Source of the DNA: an uncultured Photobacterium sp. | Lineage (GTDB): Bacteria > Pseudomonadota > Gammaproteobacteria > Enterobacterales > Vibrionaceae | NCBI RefSeq assembly: GCF_947039875.1 | Contig: NZ_CAMRAN010000007.1 | Location: 1 to 64,000 of the forward strand | DNA length: 64,000 nucleotides | Direction of reading: 5' to 3' | Shown here: positions 35,155 through 51,596 of the stretch, in pieces | Layout of the letters: each line of letters opens with the position of its first letter | Numbering within the stretch: position 1 is the stretch's first letter | The notes under the pieces: generated by a model | Told to the model about the DNA's origin: nothing | Database searches by the model: none | What the model saw: only the letters and a program-made list of their open reading frames with translations | Program-made: the position numbers and the translations under genes

Positions 35155-35380
35155 TCACTCGGTTATTTGCTCAAGCTCGGTAATAATTGTTAAGGCTTGC
35201 TCGTTGGTATTACCACAAATATCAGAGCAAGCTTTAAAATTATGACACACCGCTGGGCGTTCTGGGTGACCAAAGAGTTTGCATAAATTGTTTTCATTTA
35301 ACTGCACGCAACGTACCCCCGCAGGTTTACCATTCAGCATTCCTGGAATTGAAGATGATATACTCGGAGCAATACAGCAT
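35155..35380 (-). pseudogene. yeiW: yeiW/YkgJ-family gene, 3' part split off by the island
   Basis: The frame reads (A)CCIAPSISSSIPGMLNGKPA through NEQALTIITELEQITE to a stop at 35155. This is the body of a YkgJ/UPF0153 (YeiW-type) cysteine-rich protein, but it has no start: homology breaks at 35380. The missing first ten codons (MMECRLGCG and GC of the Ala codon) lie at 51864-51892, on the far side of the island, and joining the two restores a GCA codon and an 80-odd residue protein in frame. The gene was therefore interrupted by the element. Confidence 0.9.
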
Positions 35381-35690: not shown

Positions 35691-36910
<1,220 letters not shown>

Positions 36911-37136: not shown

Positions 37137-38171
37137 ATGTCCCAATTAAAAGTCCAATTTATAAATGCAGGTATCGGTGATTGTATTCTCATTACTGATT
37201 TGGAGACGGATAAGAAAATATTAGTAGACTCTGGTCCAAGTCAAGGTGTTGGTAGAGCAACTGTTACGAGAGTATTATTTCAAACCTTGAATAATAATAA
37301 TGAAGTTGATTTAGCTATTCTCACGCATAACGATGATGATCATATTGGTGGTTTTGAGGGACTAATTAAAAACGACATTATTTCAATAAATAAAATAATT
37401 TTTAACAGTGTCGCTGAATTAGAAGATGAGCAATTAGTTAATTCTAGCAAGGCATCATATAGACAAGATTTAAACTTATACAAGATGGTAAAGGATACAA
37501 ATATTCCCATAGAGAGTATCGTGGTTGAGGCCGGTAGTTCAAGTGTTCTTGAATTGGGAGATATCACCCTACGATTTATTTCCCCAAATGATATTAAAAT
37601 GAGTATGTTGAAAAGGTGGGCTATTAAAGAAAAGAAATTAGCAGAGAAAAAAGAAGAAGTACGTCTTGCTAAAAAATCATCTAAGAATGCTACTGTTTAT
37701 ACTTCTCTAGAACAAGCACTGACAGCTATAGAGGTAGAGGATAAATTCGATGCTGACAAGAGGGAACCAAATGGGTCTTCTTTAGCATTTATATTAGAGT
37801 ATGGAGAGTCTCGTTTATTATTTCTTGGTGATTGTCATATGGATATAGTTGAGGCTTATTTAGCTTCTAAAGAGCAACCTCAATATTTTGATTTTGTAAA
37901 ACTTTCTCACCACGCTAGTGAACATAATAATAGCCCAGAATTTTTTAACTTGATTAATTGTAAAAACTTTGTGGTTTGTAGTGATGGTGATAATAGTTAT
38001 GGTCACCCTTCAATGAAAACCATTGCTAGGTTAACGAAAAGATTTCCAGACTCATTTATACATTTCACATCGGATAGTGAGTTAATACGTAACTTCACAA
38101 AATCATTTTCTAGTAGGTGTCATTATCCAACTAACGATATATTAGAGTTTAAATATGAATTATCAAAATAA
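37137..38171 (+). CDS. ComEC/Rec2-like MBL-fold hydrolase, cargo gene 1
   Basis: The 344-residue metallo-beta-lactamase-fold enzyme has the metal motif THNDDDHIGG (residues 63-72: His64, Asp66, Asp68, His69), an Asp31 in LVDSGP, GDCHMD near 231-236, LSHHASEHNNS near 256-266 and a late His290. These are features of the ComEC C-terminal MBL group, many of which are nucleases or nucleotide hydrolases. A charged coiled insertion (about 160-185) is unusual. It overlaps the next gene by 17 bp, so the three cargo genes 37137-42156 form one operon. I infer an effector or regulatory role in a defence-like system. Confidence 0.85.
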   Translation: MSQLKVQFINAGIGDCILITDLETDKKILVDSGPSQGVGRATVTRVLFQTLNNNNEVDLAILTHNDDDHIGGFEGLIKNDIISINKIIFNSVAELEDEQLVNSSKASYRQDLNLYKMVKDTNIPIESIVVEAGSSSVLELGDITLRFISPNDIKMSMLKRWAIKEKKLAEKKEEVRLAKKSSKNATVYTSLEQALTAIEVEDKFDADKREPNGSSLAFILEYGESRLLFLGDCHMDIVEAYLASKEQPQYFDFVKLSHHASEHNNSPEFFNLINCKNFVVCSDGDNSYGHPSMKTIARLTKRFPDSFIHFTSDSELIRNFTKSFSSRCHYPTNDILEFKYELSK

Positions 38172-39660
38172 TATTGTTACTGTAAAAGTTGGGCTTCTAG
38201 ATAGTAGTGGTTATGCATTTAAGAGCGTTTGTGGGAAGAGTAAATATGTTATAACTTCAAAGCATAGTATTTGTGAGGATAAACCTAGCTGTCTCTATAT
38301 ATCTGAAGGGAATAATGCTTGTCGGACTTGTCAATTATATGTAAATATTTCTCAAGTTAAAATTAAATTCGGTGATAATAATCTAATAGATATTTGTAAT
38401 TATTTTTTATCAGATAAATCAGATGTTGCTATCTTAGAACTAGAGTCTGAAAGAACTGATTTAGATTTATTAAAATGCTCATTTTCTGATGCTAATGAAT
38501 ATTATATTTGGAAATATAATAAAGATAGTTTGATCTTAGATAGTAAACGAATAAAAGAAGAGTCATATGCACTTTACAATCTGAAAAGCCCTACTTTTAC
38601 AGAGTTCCTTCCTAAGAGTAAGGTCATACCTGGGTACTCTGGGACTCCAGTTTTTTCAATAGATGAAAAAGGTAGACCACTTATTCATTCTATACTTACT
38701 GATAATGAATCAAATAATGATATTGGTGCAGAGATAATAACTCGTGAATTACTTCATGAATTATCACTTAAATCTTCAGTGATAATTAATAGTGACTTCA
38801 GTTTATTGTCTCATGATATTAACAATACTTTCATTGAGGATTGTTTTGAGTTTTATTATGAGCAGGAACTTGAGAATGAAAATAAATTAAAAGTATATTC
38901 ATTACCTTTTACAGACTCAAATAAGTTTGATTTATCAAAAGTGGTAGATCTTCTTACTAGTAATATGACTCGTAGTGTATTCTCGCCTAGAGAAGTAGAG
39001 CTAGCGAAAGGCAATGATATGAAAGTATTCCAAGCTTTCAGTACATTCCTATCTGAACCAACTGACAAATATAGTAAACCAGCTTTATTACAAAATTTGA
39101 TTGAATCAGACTTGTCTGCTCCAACGCTGTATAAATCAACCAAACAAGATGATTTCAGTTCAATACATGTGAGAGAGTTTTTCCCAGAGCAATTCGAATT
39201 TATCATGACTAAGTTTTTTAGTGATACTGAGCTTATTGAAGCAATTAGTAATTGTGTTAATTCTATAAAAGAGGCTAATAACAAAATAAGTGGAAGTTCT
39301 CTGTTGCTTGATCAACAATTTGTTAGTCAATCTTTATCAGTGAAGTATGCTGACCTGATTTCGAAGTTAGTCCTTCCTGATAATGATACTCATATTGAAT
39401 ATAATTTTGGTTTATTAAGCACTTATATAGTGGATATTGATCCAAGTATATACCGAGAGAGGGTCTTGAATAATAAAAGATGTGCTGTTAAAGATAGAAT
39501 CATAGAACACTTAAATGATAAGTATGAAAAAATTTCATCTATATTCAATGATAATTTCTTCATGGGAAAAACTTGTTATCTTTACCTAATTCCAATCAAT
39601 GAGACTGGAGAGTTGAAGAAATTGATGTATGCCAAAATAAATCAGGGTAATAATGGTTGA
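38155..39660 (+). CDS. Trypsin-like protease fused to a degenerate HamA-like domain
   Basis: The N-terminal ~215 residues look like a trypsin-fold serine protease with a readable triad: His37 in ITSKHSIC, Asp90 in SDKSDVAIL and Ser162 in PGYSGTPVF. Cys cluster C46-C59 may bind metal or form a bridge. From about 228 to 495 the order of segments recalls HamA (DUF1837) of Hachiman defence as I remember it: FYY start, helical part, SAPTLYK, ELIEAISNCVNSI, and a final CYLYLIPINETGELKKL. The acidic nuclease residues expected near HVREF and FIMTK are absent. It lies between the MBL and helicase genes with 17-bp overlap and a 3-bp gap. The HamA link is inference; the protease is more secure. Confidence 0.6.
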   Translation: MNYQNNIVTVKVGLLDSSGYAFKSVCGKSKYVITSKHSICEDKPSCLYISEGNNACRTCQLYVNISQVKIKFGDNNLIDICNYFLSDKSDVAILELESERTDLDLLKCSFSDANEYYIWKYNKDSLILDSKRIKEESYALYNLKSPTFTEFLPKSKVIPGYSGTPVFSIDEKGRPLIHSILTDNESNNDIGAEIITRELLHELSLKSSVIINSDFSLLSHDINNTFIEDCFEFYYEQELENENKLKVYSLPFTDSNKFDLSKVVDLLTSNMTRSVFSPREVELAKGNDMKVFQAFSTFLSEPTDKYSKPALLQNLIESDLSAPTLYKSTKQDDFSSIHVREFFPEQFEFIMTKFFSDTELIEAISNCVNSIKEANNKISGSSLLLDQQFVSQSLSVKYADLISKLVLPDNDTHIEYNFGLLSTYIVDIDPSIYRERVLNNKRCAVKDRIIEHLNDKYEKISSIFNDNFFMGKTCYLYLIPINETGELKKLMYAKINQGNNG

Positions 39661-39663
39661 TAT

Positions 39664-42156
39664 ATGAGTCATAGTATAAACTTGATTGACAAATTAACTT
39701 CAGACGCTATAAAAAGTCCTCATTTTATTCAGCTATACGAAAAATTATCTATTGCTTATGCAAATAGTAAGATTAATATCGACTCATTAATTGTATCAAA
39801 AGATACTGACCATTTGTGTCGATATGCGGATATTTTTAGTTTATCAGATAAAGCTGAATATAGAGTTCTAGCATATCGTATTATTGTTAAACTCTTAGGT
39901 GTGTCTGAAAAAAACACTGACTTAGGTAGTATAGCTCGTTCTATTTTTACTAAACTTGGTTTATTTATCTCAGAGTCTAGATTTAGTGAAAAAGAATTTC
40001 CTTTACCCTATGAAGTTGAGGTTGGGAATATACTTAAAAAAGATCGTCAGAAATTACCTTATGGTAATGAAATATTAACAGATTCACAATACAAAGTTTT
40101 TAAGAGTCTAAATAGTTTGGATAGCTTTAGTTTCTCAGGTCCAACATCATTTGGTAAGTCATTCATAATTAGAAACTACATATTTAGTTGTATTAATGAT
40201 GGTAAGAACGTTGTCGTATTAGTACCTACTAAAGTTCTTATTGAAGAATATATGAGGGAAATTAGAAAAAAAGCAAAAGACAATGGTTGGATTAGTATAA
40301 ATATATCGAAAAATGCACAATCTTATCAAAATGATAAAATAAATATATTGATATTAACTCCCGAGCGGTTTAATAATTTAGTTTATAGTGAAATAGAACT
40401 AAATATAGATGTATTAATTGTGGATGAGGCCCATAAACTAGGTGATGATGATGAGCGGTCAGTAACATCTTTTAAGGTTATTCAGGAAGCAACTAATAGG
40501 TTTAAAAATTGTAAGGTTATCTTTAGCTCTCCAGTAATAAGTAATCCTTCTATTTTCTTAGAGTCTTTCGGTTTTAATGGTAAAAATTCAATTGAAGCGA
40601 TTGAAGGTCCAGTAACCCAAAATTTATTCTTCGTAGATTTAATTAATAATACCAGTCAGTTTTATAATGAAGTAAGTAAAGAGTTCTGTACATATACTCG
40701 AGAGTTGGACTCTCAAGATATGTTTAGCTTTATAAGAAGTATTACATCATCTTCTAGTTCGTCACTTATATACTGCTCTTCAAAGTCAGGTTCGGTAAAC
40801 GATGCAGTATTATTTGCTGAGCGCTTACCTAGTTTGAGTAACGAAAAACTAGTCGCAGCATCAAAAAACATAAAGGAGCTAATTCATAAAGACTATTTCC
40901 TTTCAGATATATTGCTTAAGGGGGTAGCATTCCATAATGCAGACCTGCCTAAAAGTGTAAGAGGTATTATTGAATCATTATATCAATCTAGAGATATATC
41001 TTACTTGTTTTGTACGTCGACCTTGCTTGAAGGCGTTAACTTACCAACAGGTAATTTGTTTTTGAGGTCTTTTAAAACTAAAGGAAAGATTACTAACAAA
41101 AATAAGCTAGATTTTTGGAATCTTGCTGGGCGTGCTGGGAGATATACGAAAGAACTAGATGGTAATATTTTTTGTGTTCAAGATAACGAAGATAGTTGGG
41201 GAAACATCGTTGATCTTGTTGATAAAAAGAATGAGGTAAAAGCCGACACATCGGCTCTAAAACGTCTTGAGCGTGGTCAAAAAATCATTAATGTGCTTAA
41301 AGATGGGGCGTTAAATGAGCAAAAGCAAGAGCGTATAATGGAGCAGATTGCAAATATGGTTCTATCTGACTATATGGAGTATAGAGGTAAACCTCATCCA
41401 TCGAGTCTAATTAATCTAGTACCCAAGAAGTTTCATCGTAGGTTAATGAAAGCTTTAGAAGAAAAGTTTAATAATAGTGGTATTAATGAAGTACCACGTA
41501 ATCTTTTCTCTATTGGACATAATATATCTATTGAGCGTCATATCAACGTACTATCTGATATAAAAGAGAACCCACTAATCCTAGGTTCATTAAATGGTAA
41601 AGATACATATCCATTACTTGAGAGGATATGTAGTGTATATAATTTGAAGTTCTCAAAGCCTCAAATTAATCGACTTTATCGTATTATGCAACAATGGATC
41701 CACGGTTTTACTTTGAAAGAAATTATTACTAATTCTTTAGAGAATAGTTTAACAGTAAAAGTTAATCGTAATAGTCCTTCAGAAGAATTTGATAGCTCTA
41801 ATAAAGCTCATGTTAACGCTATAATCAATGGTGTAATAGCTTCAATTGAACATGATATTGGTTATACATTAGAGTTATATGTTAATCACTACTATCAGCA
41901 TCTTGTTAATGCGTTAGGAGGTGAGAACTCTGGTATTAATCTTTCGACTTATCTAGAACTTGGAACAAACGATAAGTTTGAGATTGCTTTACAAAATCAT
42001 GGTCTTAGTCGCTCTGTGGCTGCCGAATTATGTAAATTCTATAAAGATTTTATCAAGTTTACTGATGAAAATACTGTTGTGTTAATTGATACTATGGGAT
42101 TGTTATCTAAATTAGATAGAAATAGTATTGCTTTTGCAGAGATAAGTAATCTTTAG
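39664..42156 (+). CDS. Ski2/HamB-like DEAH helicase, cargo gene 3
   Basis: This 830-residue superfamily 2 helicase has motif I GPTSFGKS (159-166), motif II VDEAH (253-257), a motif III variant FSSP, LIYCSSKSG (motif IV region), GVAFHNADLP, motif V STLLEGVNLPTGN (452-464) and motif VI NLAGRAGRYTKE (486-497). GRAGR and the NLPTGN box are Ski2-like, as in the HamB helicase of Hachiman. A helical ~330-residue C-terminal region follows without recognised domain. It begins 3 bp after the protease gene. Expected activity is ATP-dependent unwinding or sensing of damaged or phage DNA. The operon ends in the terminator at 42206-42234. Confidence 0.82.
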   Translation: MSHSINLIDKLTSDAIKSPHFIQLYEKLSIAYANSKINIDSLIVSKDTDHLCRYADIFSLSDKAEYRVLAYRIIVKLLGVSEKNTDLGSIARSIFTKLGLFISESRFSEKEFPLPYEVEVGNILKKDRQKLPYGNEILTDSQYKVFKSLNSLDSFSFSGPTSFGKSFIIRNYIFSCINDGKNVVVLVPTKVLIEEYMREIRKKAKDNGWISINISKNAQSYQNDKINILILTPERFNNLVYSEIELNIDVLIVDEAHKLGDDDERSVTSFKVIQEATNRFKNCKVIFSSPVISNPSIFLESFGFNGKNSIEAIEGPVTQNLFFVDLINNTSQFYNEVSKEFCTYTRELDSQDMFSFIRSITSSSSSSLIYCSSKSGSVNDAVLFAERLPSLSNEKLVAASKNIKELIHKDYFLSDILLKGVAFHNADLPKSVRGIIESLYQSRDISYLFCTSTLLEGVNLPTGNLFLRSFKTKGKITNKNKLDFWNLAGRAGRYTKELDGNIFCVQDNEDSWGNIVDLVDKKNEVKADTSALKRLERGQKIINVLKDGALNEQKQERIMEQIANMVLSDYMEYRGKPHPSSLINLVPKKFHRRLMKALEEKFNNSGINEVPRNLFSIGHNISIERHINVLSDIKENPLILGSLNGKDTYPLLERICSVYNLKFSKPQINRLYRIMQQWIHGFTLKEIITNSLENSLTVKVNRNSPSEEFDSSNKAHVNAIINGVIASIEHDIGYTLELYVNHYYQHLVNALGGENSGINLSTYLELGTNDKFEIALQNHGLSRSVAAELCKFYKDFIKFTDENTVVLIDTMGLLSKLDRNSIAFAEISNL

Positions 42157-42234: not shown

Positions 42235-42530
42235 ATAGAAGTTGTTACGACTAAGCTATTTTGTATTTGTGAACATCGGTAAAGGCCAAGGTTGACTGGT
42301 TTAGGATACTATTTGATTGAGCGGTGTAATGGACTTTCTTTGAGAAAGCAAGAATATCTTTACGTAAAAATTACCAAGCGCTTATCTACATAATTATCTT
42401 AAATATTAAGCTAGTTCTTTGTTATGGCTAAAATAATTAGAATGATATTCCATTTTCACCGACTTCATTGATGAAGGTCATGTATTACAATTCGATTAAG
42501 TGCAATTTTTGCAATGTAAAAAGGGATAAA
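42235..42530. other. Non-coding stretch before the 229-residue cargo gene
   Basis: No family-like ORF is visible. The last bases hold AAAAAGGGAT, a ribosome-binding site for the ATG at 42531. An ORF frame extends to 42468 but lacks a site there. Confidence 0.4.
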
Positions 42531-43220
42531 ATGTACAGTCTTACAAATATAATAGGCACAAATACTTATATTGCATCCGCAACAAATAATGAACTTTATC
42601 TTTACCATTGGACTAATGAAAGTGCGTTAAAGTCTATTTTATCTATCGGAAAAGAAAATGATTGCAAAATTTATGGTTTAGATGCTAAAGGTCAAGTTAA
42701 TTTTTTTCCATCTTTTGAGTTATTTAATCATGATGTAGTCAGAGATCTTTCTTCAGCAAAGAGAGCGTTTAATGTTTCTAAGACGAAACATGGAGAAAAT
42801 CAATATTTGTTAGCTTTCAAGCTAACTAATCTTGCTCAAATTTCAAATTTAGTTTGCTATACAAAGGATGCTTTTGCGAGTGTCAGTAGTATTCTTAGTT
42901 CAACTATTAGGCTTCAAGGAATTGGTTTTCCAATATTGGTACACTTCATCGATAAATCTCCTGATATTGATTATATAAATCATAATCAAATAAATTGCTT
43001 AAATAATTGTTGGCATACTGCTTTTTATTTAAATGATGGTCATCTAAATGGAGTTAATATTACATTTGTAGGTGTTATCTCTATGTTCTCTAGAAGGGAT
43101 AAAAAGCTTGTTGCTTTCGAAAAGAAAAAGTTTGTTTTGCGTAAAACAAATAGGGAACATAATGAACTTGTGAAAAATATCAAGTCTAAAGTTGGTGCAA
43201 ACGTAATAATCTTACGTTAA
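42531..43220 (+). CDS. Unknown cargo protein, possible ADP-ribosyltransferase fold
   Basis: I do not recognise this 229-residue protein with certainty. Its segment LYLYHWTNESALKSIL (about residues 23-38) resembles the opening strand-helix of DarT-like and other ART-fold enzymes, which read LYH-T---L--IL. A KHGENQYLLAFKLTN segment follows later. No signal peptide or membrane segment is seen; the end is basic. Start at 42531 is chosen for its AAGGGAT site. It stands alone between the helicase operon and the convergent second helicase. If an ART, it could be a toxin or defence effector; this is inference. Confidence 0.45.
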   Translation: MYSLTNIIGTNTYIASATNNELYLYHWTNESALKSILSIGKENDCKIYGLDAKGQVNFFPSFELFNHDVVRDLSSAKRAFNVSKTKHGENQYLLAFKLTNLAQISNLVCYTKDAFASVSSILSSTIRLQGIGFPILVHFIDKSPDIDYINHNQINCLNNCWHTAFYLNDGHLNGVNITFVGVISMFSRRDKKLVAFEKKKFVLRKTNREHNELVKNIKSKVGANVIILR

Positions 43221-43335: not shown

Positions 43336-44718
43336 TTACGAATAGCGAAAGGCCTCAATAACTCTTTGTTTAAATTGGCTTAAAACCAAATCTTGGTGGT
43401 ACGATTCTATTAATTTAGCTGTGCTGTTTATTTTTGTTTCGTTTTGCCATAAGAACTCACTCTGTGAAGATGTAGTCTTGCCATTAGTTATTACATTTGA
43501 TGATAAAGTTGTTTTATTATTGCTGTGGGGTATAAGTATTTCTGTGGTATCTTTTAAATGCATGCAACTATCTGGTATATCATTTTCTATTTCTTCTGAA
43601 AACTTTATTAAATTAGGCTCGGCAAATGTATAGAGCCAAGCTTCTTGGTTTTTATCTTTGGTTGTTCGTAGAATTCGACCTAATACTTGACGAAAATATA
43701 ATTCGGTTTTTATATTGGTTAGATGGCAACATACTTGTAGTCGTGGAATATCCGCCCCCTCACTAATCATACCGACACTTACTATCCATTGTGTATTACT
43801 CTTCTTAAATTTATCTATTCGGTTTTGAGCAAAATTATCTTGATAAGTAACAATAGAAGTAGTCTGTTTAAATTCAACTTCGAGTATTTTCGCTAATAAA
43901 CGTGCATGATTAACAGACGAGGCAACAATGAGACCTCCCGCGCTAGGATTTATATTTCGAATGTTTTCTAGTTTTTCGATGGCTTGTTGTAATAGGTGAT
44001 GAATGGCCTTTTTATTCTCTAATATAGCGGAATAACTGACTTCTCCATCTTTGATAAGTCTATGAATAGAAGGATAGACTTCTTTTTTTCCTTCTACATT
44101 TAATGTTGATTGCTTACAGTCAACTAAAGTTATTTTGGGGCTACGACATACGCGATCTTTAACTGCTTGATATAAAGTGTACTGATAGTCACATATTATT
44201 TTTCCTTTAGGATTAGAATAGGAGACTAGAGCGATAGGTGTGTTATCCGAGCGCCAAGGAGTACCAGTTAGAGCAAGCGTATAAGTAGATACTTGCTGTA
44301 CATTGTAAAGAAGCTGATATCCCCAACTATTACTGTTATGTTCGTTATCCCCACCACAATGGTGAATCTCGTCGAACACACAAAGGACTTTATACTTTGC
44401 CAATTTTGCCCAAAAATTCTCATTTAAATGTGTTAGTGATTGGTAGGTAATTGATTGACCGAGCGATCCAAAACTTCCATCGACTGGGCAACTTAAAACT
44501 TTCTCGAAGGTATTTTGGATATTGGATGAAGTGATTTTGGATGGTGAAATGCAAACAACAAAGTCGATTTTAGATCGTTTTAATAGCTGCTTTGCTAAAT
44601 GAGCTGCCATCAATGTTTTTCCTGCACCAGGTGTAGCTTGTGCAAGAAAGTGTTTTTTTCCTAATCTGTAATTTGAGAGCGCTTTAGATATACAAGTCTC
44701 TTGCCATGCTCTTAACAT
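43336..44718 (-). CDS. DEAD/DEAH-box helicase, second cargo helicase
   Basis: A 460-residue superfamily 2 helicase: motif I ATPGAGKT (28-35), motif II FDEIH, motif III LTGTPWRSD, motif IV IVASSVNHAR, motif V SEGADIPRLQ and motif VI RQVLGRILRTT. This set is typical of restriction-type and RIG-I-type helicases without an attached nuclease. The first 7 bp overlap the end of the upstream 182-residue gene, so the two are coupled. Which substrate it acts on is not visible; either island maintenance or phage defence is possible. Confidence 0.85.
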   Translation of the reverse strand: MLRAWQETCISKALSNYRLGKKHFLAQATPGAGKTLMAAHLAKQLLKRSKIDFVVCISPSKITSSNIQNTFEKVLSCPVDGSFGSLGQSITYQSLTHLNENFWAKLAKYKVLCVFDEIHHCGGDNEHNSNSWGYQLLYNVQQVSTYTLALTGTPWRSDNTPIALVSYSNPKGKIICDYQYTLYQAVKDRVCRSPKITLVDCKQSTLNVEGKKEVYPSIHRLIKDGEVSYSAILENKKAIHHLLQQAIEKLENIRNINPSAGGLIVASSVNHARLLAKILEVEFKQTTSIVTYQDNFAQNRIDKFKKSNTQWIVSVGMISEGADIPRLQVCCHLTNIKTELYFRQVLGRILRTTKDKNQEAWLYTFAEPNLIKFSEEIENDIPDSCMHLKDTTEILIPHSNNKTTLSSNVITNGKTTSSQSEFLWQNETKINSTAKLIESYHQDLVLSQFKQRVIEAFRYS

Positions 44719-45260
44719 GAAACCCTCTCATGTTTTTTTAAAAGCGATATCGCGTTTGTCCAAACATTCAATTGTGCCATTAAAGTTGCAGATTTTTGTG
44801 TTGTATTTTTATAAGTCGGTTGAAGTATTGTCTGTAGTGTTTTTGAACGGTTCATTAACCGCTTATATTCATCTAATTCTACTAGTATGACAGTTAATTC
44901 TGTTTCAATATCTTTTCTTTCTTTTTCAAGTTGTTGTGCTGTTAATGAAGATTCTTCTTTCAATATATTAGGGCTACATTGTTGATGTTCGCGTTTTTTT
45001 ACTTTCTCGAAATTTATGGTGTAGAAATTTTGTGTTTTTAAATAGCGTTTGGATCTTCCTGAACCTGAGCTTTTTAATGCCCCTATGGTTTCAAGGTACT
45101 CAAGTTTTCGTGCAACGAAGAGTCTAGCTACGTTGTTGTTTTTATATTGATTAGATGATGTTTGAATTATGTCTCTTATTTTAATAACACTGAATGTATC
45201 AAAATCGATTTGTTCCAATGCATTAAAGATGTCTTGATTAATTTTTACTTTTGAATTCAT
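44712..45260 (-). CDS. Hypothetical partner of the second helicase (winged helix plus coiled coil)
   Basis: The 182-residue protein has an N-terminal region (about 8-75) that looks like a winged helix: FNALEQIDFDTFSVIKIRDI, VARLFVARKLEYLETIGALK and a basic SGSGRSKRYLKT wing. A predicted coiled coil follows (about 105-150, KERKDIETELTVILVELDEYKRLM). It is co-transcribed with and overlaps the helicase, suggesting it loads the helicase on DNA or RNA. No known family was recognised. Confidence 0.7.
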   Translation of the reverse strand: MNSKVKINQDIFNALEQIDFDTFSVIKIRDIIQTSSNQYKNNNVARLFVARKLEYLETIGALKSSGSGRSKRYLKTQNFYTINFEKVKKREHQQCSPNILKEESSLTAQQLEKERKDIETELTVILVELDEYKRLMNRSKTLQTILQPTYKNTTQKSATLMAQLNVWTNAISLLKKHERVSC

Positions 45261-45354: not shown

Positions 45355-45579
45355 ATGAAAGACTTAGCAAAACGGTTTGGTGCTAATTTGCGCGGGAAAC
45401 GTAAAGAAAAAAGAGTTGCTCAAGATCAATTAGCTCTACAAGCAGATATAGACAGAAGTTATATTGGAAGAATTGAGCGTGGAGAGGTAAACATCACACT
45501 AGAAAAAGCTTATCAGCTTGCAGATGCGCTTGAGTGTGATGTAAGGGATCTTTTACCCAAGAATAGAGATTCTGCTTAA
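45355..45579 (+). CDS. XRE/C-protein-like transcriptional regulator
   Basis: A 74-residue single-domain Xre regulator: helix-turn-helix DQLALQADIDRSYIGRIERG (about 24-43), then ITLEKAYQLADALECDVRDLLP. Size and sequence are close to controller proteins of restriction-modification loci. It is divergent from the helicase pair across a 94-bp gap with a palindrome. It probably represses or times expression of that pair and of itself. Confidence 0.88.
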   Translation: MKDLAKRFGANLRGKRKEKRVAQDQLALQADIDRSYIGRIERGEVNITLEKAYQLADALECDVRDLLPKNRDSA

Positions 45580-45631: not shown

Positions 45632-45928
45632 TTATGTAAGAGCTTCTAATTCAGTTAAGGTTTTCAAGGCAAGATCAGGCCCTGAACCACAAATCCAATC
45701 ATCATTTGTAAACTTATGGCAAACCTCGGGGCGTTCAGGTAAGCCGAATAGTTTACATAAATTGTTATCATTTAGCTGAATACAACGAACACCTGCTGGT
45801 TTGCCATTTGGCATACCTGGAATTGATGATGTAATTGATGGTGCAATACAACAGGCACCACAGCCTTTTTTATAGCTGACAGATATGCATGGAGACCAGT
45901 CTGTAATATTTATTTTAGCATTAGCCAT
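45632..45928 (-). CDS. Complete YeiW/YkgJ-family protein carried by the element
   Basis: This 98-residue cysteine-rich protein (KGCGACCIAPSITSSIPGMP, RCIQLNDNNLCKLFG, FTNDDWICG) belongs to the YkgJ/UPF0153 zinc- or iron-chelating family. It is similar along most of its length to the split chromosomal gene, but not identical, and has its own longer N-terminus (MANAKINITDWSPCISVSYK). It lies inside the island beside the recombinase operon. The natural reading is that the element carries a functional substitute for the gene it inactivates. Confidence 0.9.
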   Translation of the reverse strand: MANAKINITDWSPCISVSYKKGCGACCIAPSITSSIPGMPNGKPAGVRCIQLNDNNLCKLFGLPERPEVCHKFTNDDWICGSGPDLALKTLTELEALT

Positions 45929-46007: not shown

Positions 46008-46490
46008 CTATGTTCTTTGATATGAACTGAATGTTCTGTTTGTTTTATAAGTTATTTTTTTTTCCTTATTTATGTTAAAGCTAACCACATTTAGTTCAGT
46101 GTATCCTTTTTCTTCTAAGTGCATAATATATTGTTGTATGTGAAAGAGTTGGAACTGAAGCTCTAGGCGTCTGGCTTCAGAATATCTTAATTTTTCACGA
46201 TAAAGATTTTTTTGTTTATAGTATTTTTCTTTGAGCCGTAGTGCGTTTGCTAGATTTTCTTTATCAAAAGCAGTTTGACGAGCATTCTTTTTTTTTGGTT
46301 CTGCTTCCTCTTTGATTATGCGAATTTTATCTTTCAACTTATGGTAAGCCTTAGTATTATAATTTAAGGCGCCGTTGGACAGGCCTGCCCGTTTTTCTAT
46401 GGCGTATTGGTTAACTTTCCTACCCTCTGCAATTAACTCTTTTAATGCCTTTTCGACTAATAAAACAGTTTTTTCAATTCTAGAGATCAT
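46008..46490 (-). CDS. Cds4/TnpC-like coiled-coil protein
   Basis: The 160-residue basic protein has an N-terminal DNA-binding-like part (KALKELIAEGRKVNQYAIEKRAGLSNGALNYN) and a long charged coiled coil (about 60-135). This is the form of TnpC (DUF6262) in Tn554 and of the fourth conserved gene of SE elements. It overlaps intB by 4 bp and is the last gene of the recombinase operon. Related TnpC proteins affect frequency and orientation of transposition; here that is inferred. Confidence 0.75.
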   Translation of the reverse strand: MISRIEKTVLLVEKALKELIAEGRKVNQYAIEKRAGLSNGALNYNTKAYHKLKDKIRIIKEEAEPKKKNARQTAFDKENLANALRLKEKYYKQKNLYREKLRYSEARRLELQFQLFHIQQYIMHLEEKGYTELNVVSFNINKEKKITYKTNRTFSSYQRT

Positions 46491-48607
46491 AATATAACTC
46501 CATAATATTCAAGGGCATCTTTATAATAATCCATTTCTAATCTGAAATAGTCGCAAGTTGCGTCTGATTGTTTGCTATCTAAGGCAGTATTTAATTGTTG
46601 TTTATAGTGGTTATACCGTTTTATCCAAATAGGAATTGAGTCTTTATCAGCAACCAAGTTCTCACAATTAGGGTTACATTTAGCTGATTGTACTATTGTT
46701 GCCATACTACAATTTTGACCATTTAAGCAAAATAAACCATTACCTAAGGACATTAGCTTAGATTTATTGCGTCTTGCCATTGTTATTGCTTTTTTAAGTG
46801 AAGGGTAGACTTTCTCTAAGTCGTGTTTACCTTTCTGAGACGCTAGCAATTGACCGCCTTTACCGTATAAGTTGGAACCTTCTTGAAACTTGATAGCATT
46901 AGTCGCGGCAATCTTTATATCTATTTCTGCAAGCTCCTTAGCCATTGCTTCAGGTATTGCCTTATTATGAATAGAGTTCTCAATTCCTCCTATCCCGTAC
47001 CATTCTGTCATTGTCCGAGTTAGGTGTTTGTATTGCCAGCTTAGATCACTCATTTCTATCAATCCAAGACGTCTTGAATGAACTGCAATACTACGTCTGA
47101 ATTGGTGTGTTTTGATTGGCCAAAACGCGTCTTCAAATATTTCTGATTCTATCGCTTTGGGATTTTCGATATTTGGATTCAGACTATAAAAGTCCTTTAA
47201 ATTTTCTTTACTAATTAAAATATTATGAGTCTTTGACCAATTAGCAAAGAATTCTGATTGCCTTTGATGAAGCATTATTTCTAGTTTACCTGAAGCGGCA
47301 AATTTTTTTGCATTTAAGCAAATAGGATAATTATTTAATTCCTCTTTTGGTATATCAAAGAAAGCTTCTGCAATCATTGTTATCTTGTTAAATATTTTTA
47401 CAATGTAAGGGGCTGCTGCCCAGTCCTGATCTTCACCATTTTCGCTTGCAAATTTAGATAGAATAGCTTTAACACCTACATAGTTATCTTCTTCAATTAA
47501 TGAACCAAACGTAATAGTTTTGGCCTCAGATATACGCATTCCAGTCATTGATTGAATAGCTGCACGAGCAGTAATTACAATGGTGTTATAATAATTTGTC
47601 CATTCGAGCTTATTAATTCTATATTTTGCATATTCTCGAATGATATTTACTTGCTTGTTCTCTGAATTGATAAAGTTATCTCTTTGACGTAAATGTTCTA
47701 TATCTTTATCTGAACGTTTTACTATGATATTGTCACGAAAAGGTGCCCCTAGGTTATAAATATATTCAAGATCTGATTCGTGAAATATACAATAAGACTC
47801 GAATTTCTCACAGATTCTATTTGTTTTTGAATGTCGAATTAATATTTTAATATTTGATTTGTTTATAAATTCCTTGTTGATTAATGCTATTCTTCGAAGA
47901 GAATTTATATCTATAGAAATATTATCAAAATAATCCATAAATGATTTCCATATACTTGCCAATATATCAAATGGCATGCAGTAAACTTGGTTAGATTTTC
48001 GTTCAGGTAAAAGGTCACTAAGACCAATCCTTAATTCAAAACCAAGCTCAGCCAGCTTTGTGTGATTAATATTAGTCGCACTATTTAGTGACATATAATA
48101 GTTACGTATTGTTGCGGCTGATCTAATATCTGATTTTTCAAATTCAGCTCTGAATTTTTCTAATATTGGAGCTCTATTTAGATCATAAATCGATTTAATT
48201 CCCAATGATTGGCATGTGCGAGCAATTTTTACTATATTCTCTATATTACGAATTAAGCTTGGTAACTTACTGTTTTTGTTGAATAACCATAGTATGCATA
48301 CACCCAGTATTTTTACCTCAAATTTAAGTTGGTCGTTAAGCCCTTTAAAATTTACTGCTCTAACTGTTTCGCCACTGTAGGTAATCATTTTATTTGACCA
48401 ATAATCAGCGCTGAACAAAATCGATTCTTTAATATTACTTGATGGAATTATTATTAGATTATCTATCAAAGTTATCTTATTTTGATTTAGTGCATCATAA
48501 AGAAGTTGTTCAGATGGAAGCTTATGATAGTCTTTTTGGTGTGTTGTTTTGTATCCACCAAATTTATATAATGCGTTATTAATATTTATTTTAGCTAAAT
48601 TATCCAT
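46487..48607 (-). CDS. intB: Tyrosine recombinase IntB (TnpB-like)
   Basis: A 706-residue large tyrosine recombinase. All catalytic parts can be read in the last half: Arg in MTGMRISEAKTI, HxxR in THQFRRSIAV, a His in YKHLTRTMTEW and the Tyr nucleophile in WYGIG. A Cys-rich region near the end (CLNGQNCSMATIVQSAKCNPNC) may bind zinc. Length and Cys region fit Tn554 TnpB and SE IntB. It overlaps the genes on both sides (13 bp and 4 bp), so all four are translated together. Confidence 0.82.
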   Translation of the reverse strand: MDNLAKININNALYKFGGYKTTHQKDYHKLPSEQLLYDALNQNKITLIDNLIIIPSSNIKESILFSADYWSNKMITYSGETVRAVNFKGLNDQLKFEVKILGVCILWLFNKNSKLPSLIRNIENIVKIARTCQSLGIKSIYDLNRAPILEKFRAEFEKSDIRSAATIRNYYMSLNSATNINHTKLAELGFELRIGLSDLLPERKSNQVYCMPFDILASIWKSFMDYFDNISIDINSLRRIALINKEFINKSNIKILIRHSKTNRICEKFESYCIFHESDLEYIYNLGAPFRDNIIVKRSDKDIEHLRQRDNFINSENKQVNIIREYAKYRINKLEWTNYYNTIVITARAAIQSMTGMRISEAKTITFGSLIEEDNYVGVKAILSKFASENGEDQDWAAAPYIVKIFNKITMIAEAFFDIPKEELNNYPICLNAKKFAASGKLEIMLHQRQSEFFANWSKTHNILISKENLKDFYSLNPNIENPKAIESEIFEDAFWPIKTHQFRRSIAVHSRRLGLIEMSDLSWQYKHLTRTMTEWYGIGGIENSIHNKAIPEAMAKELAEIDIKIAATNAIKFQEGSNLYGKGGQLLASQKGKHDLEKVYPSLKKAITMARRNKSKLMSLGNGLFCLNGQNCSMATIVQSAKCNPNCENLVADKDSIPIWIKRYNHYKQQLNTALDSKQSDATCDYFRLEMDYYKDALEYYGVIL

Positions 48608-50355
48608 ATGGATGAAATACCTTCATTAATCATTTTTTTATTTGCTCTAGCAACTATTTTTGGGTCAACTAAAGCGAGTCTTAAATCTAATTTTTTAATT
48701 AGTTCATTATATTTTTCTACAGCAACTTTAGAACCGATATAAGTAACTTTATTTAGAGTTATCATTTCTCTAAATGAAATTAGTTTATAGATAGCTTGTT
48801 CATTCTCAATAACAGCACATTTATCGCATGTAACACAAGATAGTAAATCGGCACAGGCTTTTGGCTTTCTACCAAAGCTATTTTGTTGACGAATATATAT
48901 AATTTCTTCTTGTGTTGTGGGGGCAGATCTTTTACAGCCAAATCCATTAGGAAGTAATGGTGTGTCGTTAGTGATGTCTTTTACTAGGGTAATATTTAAA
49001 TTTTTTGCAGCTTGTTGACGATTCGAGAATGTCATAGAGGAAACACCACCATCAATCAAGGTATTTAGCATTTTTGATACATTAGCTAACGCCTCAAATT
49101 TATTACCTTTGGCATAGTTTTTCTGATAGGTCCCCCAAGTATGTTGTGCTTTTTCCGTTATAATTAATGGATTCTTAAGTATACTATCTGCGTATTGCTC
49201 TGCACTTTTACGTAATTTAGGACCGTTAAACTCTGGAACTTTATAGCCTTGTTCTACTAGTTCTCTAAAGAGTAAGCCATTTCTAAATAATGATGTTTTA
49301 ATGATTAATGGAGTGATTTTTTTCTCTTTGTTGATATTAAAGAAGAGCTTGTTCGTCTCGAATGTGTAGTTCTTTTTTTGATAAACCTTGACTAACTTAG
49401 TTCGAAGATTGATAAAGTTCTGTAGCCATTTATAACCTGCTCTATCACTGTCAATTAAACTTTTTCCAATCCCAAGTCTAACAAAAGTGAAAGCTCGCCC
49501 TTTAAATTTAAAATTTGAATCAGTGTTACTATCTTCATCAAAGGTAATTTCAGAAGGCTTAAGATTGAGAACTTGTTCTTTATTGCCCCATGTGTAAAAA
49601 ATGAAGAGATAATAAGATACCCACATAAAATCTCGAATTAAACGACAAGTGATAAATTTGTAGTTTATCTTTTGTTTTTTGATCCTGATCGATATCCTTC
49701 CATGTAGCCAAATTTTTTCCATTGGTGCTAAAATGTGGGTAGAGTTATTACTACATTCAGCTAAATTTATTTGTTCTTCTATGTGGTTACGTAATCCATT
49801 ATACGTTTTCAATAATAATTGAATGGTTAATATTAATTCAGATTTTCTTAGAGGTTGAGATGAGGAATTTAAAGCGCTTTTTTTAGGGCCAAAAGAATGA
49901 TTTATAGGTCTTTCAAGTTTTCCACAAAATCTTAAGAAACAATTAACCGTTGATAGTAGCCCCATAACGGTACAAACAGATTTTGATTTTTTTCTAATCT
50001 CTGAATGCAGAATATTACAATATTCTGCAACGCCATCATCTGAGCCTATTTCGAAATGATTAGTTGCTTGAAACCATAAAAAAAAGTGAAGACTTCTAGC
50101 TATTGTAAGTCTTCCACCAATAGCGTAAGTAGTTAAATAATCTCTAATAGATGTGGCAAGAATAAGTAGTTCTCTATCAATATGTGTCCCTGCATATTGG
50201 TTGTAATAGTCTTCTTTTGATCTTCGTGGAAGCGTTTTGCCAACATATGCAATATACCCCTTGATTGCATAAGGATTTAAGTCTAGGTATTGTATGTTAA
50301 TAGTTCCAGTGTCTTTGTAGGGAACCATGAAATCAGATTGCCAGTACCTATTCAT
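48595..50355 (-). CDS. Cds2-like degenerate tyrosine recombinase
   Basis: The 586-residue protein shares the layout of large tyrosine recombinases but its catalytic motifs are altered. The first Arg position reads WGNKEQVLNLKPSE, with no GLR. The HxxR box reads GPKLRKSAEQ, keeping Arg but not His. A possible final Tyr stands in QKNYAKG. A Cys-rich segment (LLSCVTCDKC) follows, as in IntB. This matches the second conserved gene of SE elements, placed between intA and intB. I infer a DNA-binding or architectural role in the synaptic complex. Confidence 0.7.
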   Translation of the reverse strand: MNRYWQSDFMVPYKDTGTINIQYLDLNPYAIKGYIAYVGKTLPRRSKEDYYNQYAGTHIDRELLILATSIRDYLTTYAIGGRLTIARSLHFFLWFQATNHFEIGSDDGVAEYCNILHSEIRKKSKSVCTVMGLLSTVNCFLRFCGKLERPINHSFGPKKSALNSSSQPLRKSELILTIQLLLKTYNGLRNHIEEQINLAECSNNSTHILAPMEKIWLHGRISIRIKKQKINYKFITCRLIRDFMWVSYYLFIFYTWGNKEQVLNLKPSEITFDEDSNTDSNFKFKGRAFTFVRLGIGKSLIDSDRAGYKWLQNFINLRTKLVKVYQKKNYTFETNKLFFNINKEKKITPLIIKTSLFRNGLLFRELVEQGYKVPEFNGPKLRKSAEQYADSILKNPLIITEKAQHTWGTYQKNYAKGNKFEALANVSKMLNTLIDGGVSSMTFSNRQQAAKNLNITLVKDITNDTPLLPNGFGCKRSAPTTQEEIIYIRQQNSFGRKPKACADLLSCVTCDKCAVIENEQAIYKLISFREMITLNKVTYIGSKVAVEKYNELIKKLDLRLALVDPKIVARANKKMINEGISSIWII

Positions 50356-51596
50356 AAGTCATCCTTAAATGCTTCTATTACTAGCTGATCCATTACCTCA
50401 GCTACGGCTTGATTGATTGATTTCCGTTCTAGATATCGAATGTATTTTAAAGTTGTGCTTACATTAGCATGGCCTAATACGTCTTTAGTTTGTCTTAGTG
50501 CTACAGAATGATCGCCGTTAGTTACTTTTAGTGCTGAATTTAGAAAATTGGTGCCAAAGGTTGCTCGACAATCATGAGGATGATGTGGGAATGAATGATC
50601 ATGTTCTTTTTGGTACTGCTTCTTTATTTTTGTCCAACCACCGTAAAAGGTTTCAGGTTTAAATGGGTTACCTGCCTGGGTGATGAAGATAGGCGCATAT
50701 CCTTTGTCAATATTTTTAAATTCATTACTGTGTACGCTATATAGAATTTTTTGTCTTTTTTTATAGGTATCAGTATCTATGTAATCTAAAATCTGCTCGT
50801 AGAGGCTTGAAGTAATGAATAATTCTCGTTTTATTCCGAATTTAGTAGCTACACCTGTATTAGGTGATATTACTAATCCCTTGATTAAGGCTCCTTCTGA
50901 ATTGAGCAATGTTTCTTCATTGAATAGCATCGTGTTTATTGTCACGGCTTCCTTTATTCTTAAACCACAATTAAGCATTAGTTTTAAAATTAATTGATAT
51001 TCAATACTAATCGCTTTAGCTGATGCGATTTGAATATTAATTTGCTCTGTAAGATCAAGAGGGTTCAATGAAGAGCTGTGTTTTCGTGGTGTTTTGAGTC
51101 TTAAATCTGTTGATTGAATAGGTCTTTTACCATCAATAATACAGACCTCATGCTGAAAAAATACACCGGGTTTCACGTATTTCTTTGCTTCTAAAAACTC
51201 ATAAAAGCTTTTGATTGTGTTTATGTATTGACTAGCAGTAGAGGCGGCTATTTCTTGATTTTGGATTCGAGTCATTAATTCGTAGCGAAATCCATAGGTT
51301 GGGGTTCTCTGTTTTTCAAAACATGGCTTGAATGGTTCGATATCATGTTCATTTAGCCAAAGACACCAAGTTTTGAAAGCTTTTGCTGTTGATGAAAGAT
51401 CCTTTGCGCCATTGCTTGCTTTACCGATTAAATAAATGTGGATGAGGTCTGCGAGGTCATTTTTAACAGGACCAACCAATACAGGTACCTTAATTGTTCT
51501 ATATGGCGATTTGAACTCTACAGCTCCATTAGAAGGGTGGAAGATTGTCTCTATCTCACCAACTCTTAACTGTGTGTAGATAATTTCCAACAGCAT
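50352..51596 (-). CDS. intA: Tyrosine recombinase IntA (TnpA-like)
   Basis: A 414-residue tyrosine recombinase with an N-terminal SAM-like core-binding domain (about 65-175) and a catalytic domain: Arg in NCGLRIKEAVTI, HxxR in HDCRATFGTNF, His in VLGHANVSTTLKY and the Tyr in KYIRYLE. It is the first gene of the operon, 267 bp from the element's right end, reading inward. It should bind the end repeats at 51811-51863 and cut at the 6-bp spacer. It overlaps Cds2 by 4 bp. Confidence 0.88.
   Translation of the reverse strand: MLLEIIYTQLRVGEIETIFHPSNGAVEFKSPYRTIKVPVLVGPVKNDLADLIHIYLIGKASNGAKDLSSTAKAFKTWCLWLNEHDIEPFKPCFEKQRTPTYGFRYELMTRIQNQEIAASTASQYINTIKSFYEFLEAKKYVKPGVFFQHEVCIIDGKRPIQSTDLRLKTPRKHSSSLNPLDLTEQINIQIASAKAISIEYQLILKLMLNCGLRIKEAVTINTMLFNEETLLNSEGALIKGLVISPNTGVATKFGIKRELFITSSLYEQILDYIDTDTYKKRQKILYSVHSNEFKNIDKGYAPIFITQAGNPFKPETFYGGWTKIKKQYQKEHDHSFPHHPHDCRATFGTNFLNSALKVTNGDHSVALRQTKDVLGHANVSTTLKYIRYLERKSINQAVAEVMDQLVIEAFKDDL

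Follow-up and report, generated by a model that had tools for sequence, protein, structure and literature searches.

The window, that is the whole stretch of 64,000 nucleotides analysed here, encodes a HamMAB defence system. The order of the three genes, a protease-HamA fusion with a catalytic triad, and a HamA domain that has lost its D and GExK motifs are all found in the locus, while isoleucine is found at neither of the aligned cut sites of HamM. We do not treat isoleucine at these sites as defining HamMAB; in our reading, other trypsin-MBL pairs carry valine, methionine, or threonine there. With a probability of roughly 0.8, the locus is a HamMAB system in which a HamB-controlled protease would cut HamM at two gates, as predicted below, and thereby release DNA destruction, with a P1 preference for alanine or serine.

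HamMAB has been described as a nuclease-protease Hachiman whose protease activates the pro-nuclease HamM by cleavage, upon which HamM degrades DNA (Tuck et al. 2025, PMC12799240). According to the passages of that paper covered here, the fusion is present in about 5% of Hachiman systems, and the catalytic motif of HamA is gone in virtually all of the fused proteins. The protease is under the control of HamB, DNA, and ATP hydrolysis, and oligomerisation through HamA is the trigger. The active site of the published HamM, which belongs to the MBL fold, is blocked by two disordered gating insertions, and the P. fluorescens HamM is cut after I118 and I218, residues that were located by mass spectrometry, by which the DNase is unmasked. 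The isoleucine at the cut sites was reported to be highly conserved, and cleavage was presented as specific for certain isoleucines (PMC12799240). We recovered the P. fluorescens HamM as a protein of 374 residues (P0105) with isoleucines at 118 and 218, matching the numbering of the paper. A protein that differs from it at residue 1 only is encoded in a Pseudomonas genome, where it adjoins a protease-HamA with Ser157.

The most upstream gene of the system in the window, hamM, had been overlooked in the initial annotation. Its features are as follows.

37137..38171, + strand: hamM, encoding a predicted pro-nuclease of 344 residues with an MBL fold of the ComEC type (Pfam, PADLOC, AlphaFold2)
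37323..37343, + strand: MBL metal-binding motif THNDDDH, HamM residues 63-69, read from the sequence
37449..37457, + strand: gate 1 of HamM, K105-A106-S107, with A106 as predicted cut residue opposite P. fluorescens I118 (alignment)
37674..37682, + strand: gate 2 of HamM, K180-S181-S182, with S181 as predicted cut residue, which a motif-based alignment places opposite P. fluorescens I218 with an ambiguity of one residue

HamM matches the Lactamase_B family of Pfam (E 2.7e-11) and the PADLOC models LmuA (8.3e-65) and Avs1a (1.2e-31) as well as the RT-associated MBL, and it scores 149 bits with the Avs1a model of NCBIfam, which is under the cut-off of 420 bits. The AlphaFold2 model has a pLDDT of 89, and its top match in the PDB is the MBL domain of ComEC (9ic4, E 4.9e-16). 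The residues T63, H64, D66, D68, and H69 of the metal-binding motif are invariant in all 31 aligned sequences. The four ten-residue blocks with the lowest pLDDT are those of residues 91-110 (about 70) and 171-190 (49 at 171-180 and 67 at 181-190), and the remainder of the model is confident. The 3' end of hamM shares 17 bases with the start of the protease-HamA gene, which is followed by hamB.

38155..39660, + strand: protease-HamA fusion gene, 501 residues
38155..38814, + strand: trypsin-like protease domain, residues 1-220
38263..38265, + strand: catalytic His37 of protease-HamA
38422..38424, + strand: catalytic Asp90 of protease-HamA
38638..38640, + strand: catalytic Ser162 of protease-HamA (GYSGTP), aligned with P. 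fluorescens Ser157
38815..39657, + strand: catalytically dead HamA domain, residues 221-501
39154..39168, + strand: FSSIH where unfused HamA has an ADGVH-type motif (catalytic D lost)
39202..39213, + strand: IMTK where unfused HamA has a GExK-type motif (catalytic E lost)
39664..42156, + strand: hamB, encoding a Ski2-like DEAD-box helicase of 830 residues (PADLOC HamB, E 2.1e-238; PDB 9wh1_B, E 5.8e-112)
40138-40161, 40423-40434, and 41128-41142, + strand: HamB helicase motifs GPTSFGKS, DEAH, and GRAGR; motifs I, II, and VI are present

The initial annotation had proposed a trypsin-like protease with a His37-Asp90-Ser162 triad, which is confirmed by domain searches, alignment, and the predicted fold. 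The HamA-like nature of the C-terminal region also held in a structure check, in which Foldseek matched this domain to HamA of E. coli ECOR31 (8vx9_A, E 2.7e-6), the protease-HamA model being of only moderate quality. Searched by sequence against the PDB, the HamA part matched 9wh1_A alone (E 0.011), and the profile of the whole protease-HamA gave nothing useful against the solved structures. The nuclease residues of HamA are missing as had been stated, the D and GExK motifs being replaced by FSSIH and IMTK, and this distinguishes fused from unfused HamA in the proteins compared: in the 25 that could be aligned (the alignment covered 25 of 35 loci), D and E are both absent in all 13 fused proteins and both kept in all 12 unfused ones. 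The adjoining Ski2-like helicase, noted before, is the Hachiman-type partner HamB. The proposal that the nuclease had been lost and replaced by a protease is right in that the catalysis of HamA is gone, but a separate relative of MBL-fold nucleases is encoded directly upstream. The idea that the system cuts proteins and not DNA is probably wrong, given that the protease of the P. fluorescens homologue cuts a pro-nuclease whose product degrades DNA (PMC12799240).

The window and the P. fluorescens HamMAB share the order of MBL nuclease, protease with dead HamA, and HamB, the correspondence of Ser157 and Ser162, the dead HamA motif, and two loops of HamM, which in the window are candidate gating loops (PMC12799240, in the passages covered). 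However, the HamM proteins are only about 24-26% and the protease-HamA proteins about 13-15% identical, HamM of the window is shorter (344 versus 374 residues), and where P. fluorescens has I118 and I218 it carries A106 and S181. The canonical Hachiman HamAB (E. coli ECOR31, 8VX9; PMC12278908) also combines a HamA fold with a HamB helicase, but the HamA of the window is without the catalytic D and E, has a protease in front, and is accompanied by an extra MBL gene. AbpAB, described as a Hachiman variant, contains a Cap4-like nuclease domain in AbpA and no protease, and the passages of PMC12278908 covered here describe no MBL partner. AVAST type 1 (Avs1a/Avs1b) and the trypsin-type Lamassu resemble the window in pairing an MBL protein with a trypsin-like protease, but their protease is fused to another partner and they have another sensor. 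In AVAST type 1 the protease is fused to a STAND ATPase, whereas that of the window is fused to HamA, and searches with Pfam, PADLOC, and NCBIfam found no STAND domain in the proteins of the window. Membership in AVAST or Lamassu was considered and rejected: HamM resembles their MBL proteins, yet the fused partner is HamA. Among the loci collected here, L003, L008-L010, and L041 look AVAST- or Lamassu-like judging by gene sizes and order, and their gates carry isoleucine or, in L041, tyrosine and phenylalanine. In L003 and L041 the MBL gene is followed by a trypsin-fused protein and then by genes for about 175 and 632 residues, which we read as Lamassu-like.

By analogy to the P. fluorescens system, HamB sitting on the dead HamA domain would keep the protease silent. 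DNA ends or infection intermediates together with ATP hydrolysis might then free and cluster the protease-HamA proteins, with HamB likely sensing damaged or replicating phage DNA. The fused protease would cut HamM in both gating loops, presumably after A106 and S181. DNA would then be degraded by the MBL nuclease released in this way, which would halt the phage while sacrificing the cell. Most likely, the HamMAB system still ends in DNA destruction and the protein cut would be its trigger. We infer each of these steps for the member in the window from P. fluorescens, across about 24-26% identity in HamM and 13-15% in protease-HamA.

When HamM of the window is aligned to sister loci, gate 1 follows the motif K/Q-P1-S-x-x-Q-D and gate 2 the motif K/Q/R-P1-S/A. 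Leu100, counted back from a serine, had been considered as gate 1 and was dropped once the sister loci showed the motif K/Q-I-S-Y/F-x-Q-D. All nine members of the clade of the window (P0009-P0017) have alanine or serine at both gates, with gate 1 assigned by rule and gate 2 by eye, and these residues are kept across the clade down to 53% identity; a Psychromonas homologue has alanine at both. In addition, lysine directly precedes the proposed P1 residue at both gates of the window and at gate 1 in all nine clade members. The loop that holds gate 2 is variable: either S181 or its neighbour K180 falls opposite the isoleucine column, depending on the relative, and one clade member (P0016) shows two candidate gate-2 motifs. 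Of the further sequences P0018-P0034, one fragment reaches across gate 1 alone, which is alanine (P0023), and 14 of the remaining 16, with gate 2 again read by eye, have both gates of the same class (isoleucine/valine, or tyrosine and phenylalanine); P0019 and P0020 are discordant with alanine at gate 1 and leucine at gate 2. In a table of 19 loci, from whose by-eye reading L031, L061, and L111 were left out, 13 loci have isoleucine at both gates (L003-L010, L090, L091, L106-L108), L067 has isoleucine and valine, L002 has valine twice, and L041 has tyrosine and phenylalanine. The literature searches and a term search of the main text of Tuck et al. gave no mention of sites other than isoleucine in trypsin pairs, although Huang et al., who treat the trypsin-MBL module, may already report such sites.

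The coupling between the gates was analysed with a rule that avoids a by-eye choice of gate 2: the P1 residue of gate 1, followed by S, A, or G, was sought in a fixed stretch of 21 residues at gate 2. Of 283 MBL sequences gathered, 84 without one of the gate anchors were dropped by rule and 199 were kept, with gate 1 assigned by rule. The gate-1 residue recurs at gate 2 in 151 of these 199 proteins, whereas shuffles give 60.7 on average and at most 79. For representatives of clusters at 50% identity the recurrence is 34 of 53, with 19 misses (shuffle mean 15.5, maximum 26, reached by none of 2000 shuffles), at 40% it is 15 of 21 (shuffle mean 6.2), and at 35% it is 10 of 12 (shuffle mean 4.6, reached by 2 of 1000 shuffles). 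Representatives outside the discovery set give 23 of 38 (mean 12.5, maximum 20, 0 of 2000). Shuffling corrects only partly for ancestry, but neighbouring positions share the same ancestry, and when the gate-1 position is shifted by one to four residues either way, z ranges from -0.9 to 1.5 at the eight offsets compared with 6.3 at the cut residue. The position one before the P1 residue of gate 1 carries no signal, with 9 matches in 53 against a shuffle mean of 11.4. The coupling signal, which was obtained from sequences only, points to the same residue at which mass spectrometry placed the cut in P. fluorescens (PMC12799240, as far as covered). Some other members of the family have methionine at both gates or threonine at both, and six protease partners of these types (L014, L019, L023, L028, L033, L052) show His and Ser motifs of the trypsin type, which suggests that isoleucine may be one of several P1 classes. 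The tyrosine and phenylalanine gates of L041 likewise suggest an aromatic class. HamM of the window, with alanine at gate 1 and serine at gate 2, is a miss in the exact-match test, and its case rests on the nine of nine clade members.

Because both gates of the window have changed together and, over the family as a whole, gate 1 and gate 2 correspond, we predict a separate P1 preference for each lineage of proteases; that of the window would prefer small residues, alanine or serine and not isoleucine. In the wider form towards which we lean, and which seems reasonably probable, the nucleases of trypsin-MBL pairs would have the same kind of P1 residue at both gates (isoleucine/valine, methionine, threonine, alanine/serine, or aromatic), each class would be read by a co-evolved protease, and the lineage of the window would have switched both gates from isoleucine to alanine/serine, which would insulate it from the isoleucine-type pairs. 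A search for co-variation in the S1 pocket (168 columns in 70 partners, ancestry uncorrected) gave L181 of the window, on the second strand after the catalytic serine, as the column most tied to the P1 class; this search took in alanine/serine calls that were made by rule outside the clade (L016, L049, L063, L080). L181 was set aside as a determinant of the pocket, since the isoleucine-type L003 shares leucine there with the alanine/serine clade and ancestry was uncorrected. If P1 were a lineage code matched at both gates, the cut sites of many uncharacterised pairs could be predictable from sequence, and several pairs of protease and pro-nuclease could coexist without cross-activation. The P1 preference in relation to the S1 pocket of the protease would also be a testable case of enzyme-substrate co-evolution in immunity.

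HamMAB could also work as published while in the clade of the window the two loops are cut at other residues, such as Lys105 and Lys180 in the usual manner of trypsin, so that alanine and serine would not be P1. The lysine at gate 1 in nine of nine clade members and also in the gate-2 motif, as well as the ambiguity of one residue in the alignment of gate 2, would fit such cuts. However, the published homologue is cut after isoleucine and not after a basic residue (PMC12799240), and the residue that is matched between the gates is the one after the lysine or glutamine while the preceding position is unmatched. We regard lysine cuts as unlikely. Very improbable is a decaying copy, in which the isoleucine gates have been lost, protease and nuclease are disconnected, and the system is dead. 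Both published cut residues are missing from HamM of the window and an insertion sequence is located about 230 bases upstream of hamM, but none of the three genes has a broken reading frame, the triad and the motifs of the helicase and the MBL domain are intact, and a decaying copy would not keep alanine/serine gates that are common to nine of nine clade members down to 53% identity.

The least probable of these explanations makes the protease itself the last step of the system, with killing brought about by the cleavage of host or phage proteins. An intact protease would indeed stand in for the lost catalysis of HamA. However, the overlapping upstream gene, which recurs with the fusion in relatives, encodes a nuclease relative whose MBL motif is intact and which has two flexible loops, and in P. 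fluorescens immunity was abolished by mutation of the nuclease while other tested proteins were left uncut (PMC12799240, in the passages covered). The protease as sole effector was set aside given the upstream hamM and the published homologue. The preferred reading is still a protease that would activate HamM by cuts after alanine and serine.

The clade to which the HamMAB of the window belongs looks rare. Among 394 genomes of the order, 7 have HamM relatives, that of the window included, and a protein search that scored the 7986 best word-sharing candidates gave at least seven relatives of protease-HamA besides that of the window. The gene order itself recurs: all three genes are present in 5 of 80 loci that were fetched with HamM from the genome collection (L004-L007, L067). 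The genes for the MBL protein, protease-HamA, and HamB are consecutive in V. bivalvicida, Morganella, Aliivibrio, Erwinia, and Chimaeribacter, and the same order is found in two records of the plasmid collection, from Plesiomonas and V. parahaemolyticus, as well as in a Psychromonas genome (G194) and in the partly covered locus L131. The helicase gene in the Plesiomonas plasmid record is short and followed by an insertion sequence. Phage records contained no match to HamM at E 1e-8, and a near-identity search of E. coli genomes found no match to the operon; a distant E. coli record (L108) encodes a related pair.

An IS3-type insertion sequence (orfA and orfB, the latter with an rve domain) occupies 35697-36910 on the + strand upstream of hamM and could possibly affect its promoter. 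Downstream of hamB, an open reading frame of 250 residues (42468-43220, + strand) has its best solved relative at E 0.024 and no family above the cut-offs of Pfam, PADLOC, and NCBIfam. The short Psychromonas locus L085 showed no such frame after HamB, and we do not count it as a fourth gene of the system. Two copies of a YkgJ-like CxxCxxCC gene (35155-35340 and 45632-45928, both on the - strand), which are 65% identical over 60 residues, flank HamMAB, and the left copy is N-terminally truncated, as if an element had integrated there and brought a replacement end. Beyond the right copy, four tightly packed genes for 414, 586, 706, and 160 residues (46008-51596, - strand) resemble a mobile element with several recombinases that adjoins the defence genes; the first encodes a tyrosine-recombinase domain (Pfam, E 5.3e-13) and the other three had no Pfam match above cut-off. 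An overlapping pair of genes at 43336-45260 (- strand) encodes a RadD/ResIII-like helicase of 460 residues and a protein of 182 residues without assigned family. This pair, next to which the sequence reads as a small helix-turn-helix regulator at 45355-45579, is possibly a second defence module.
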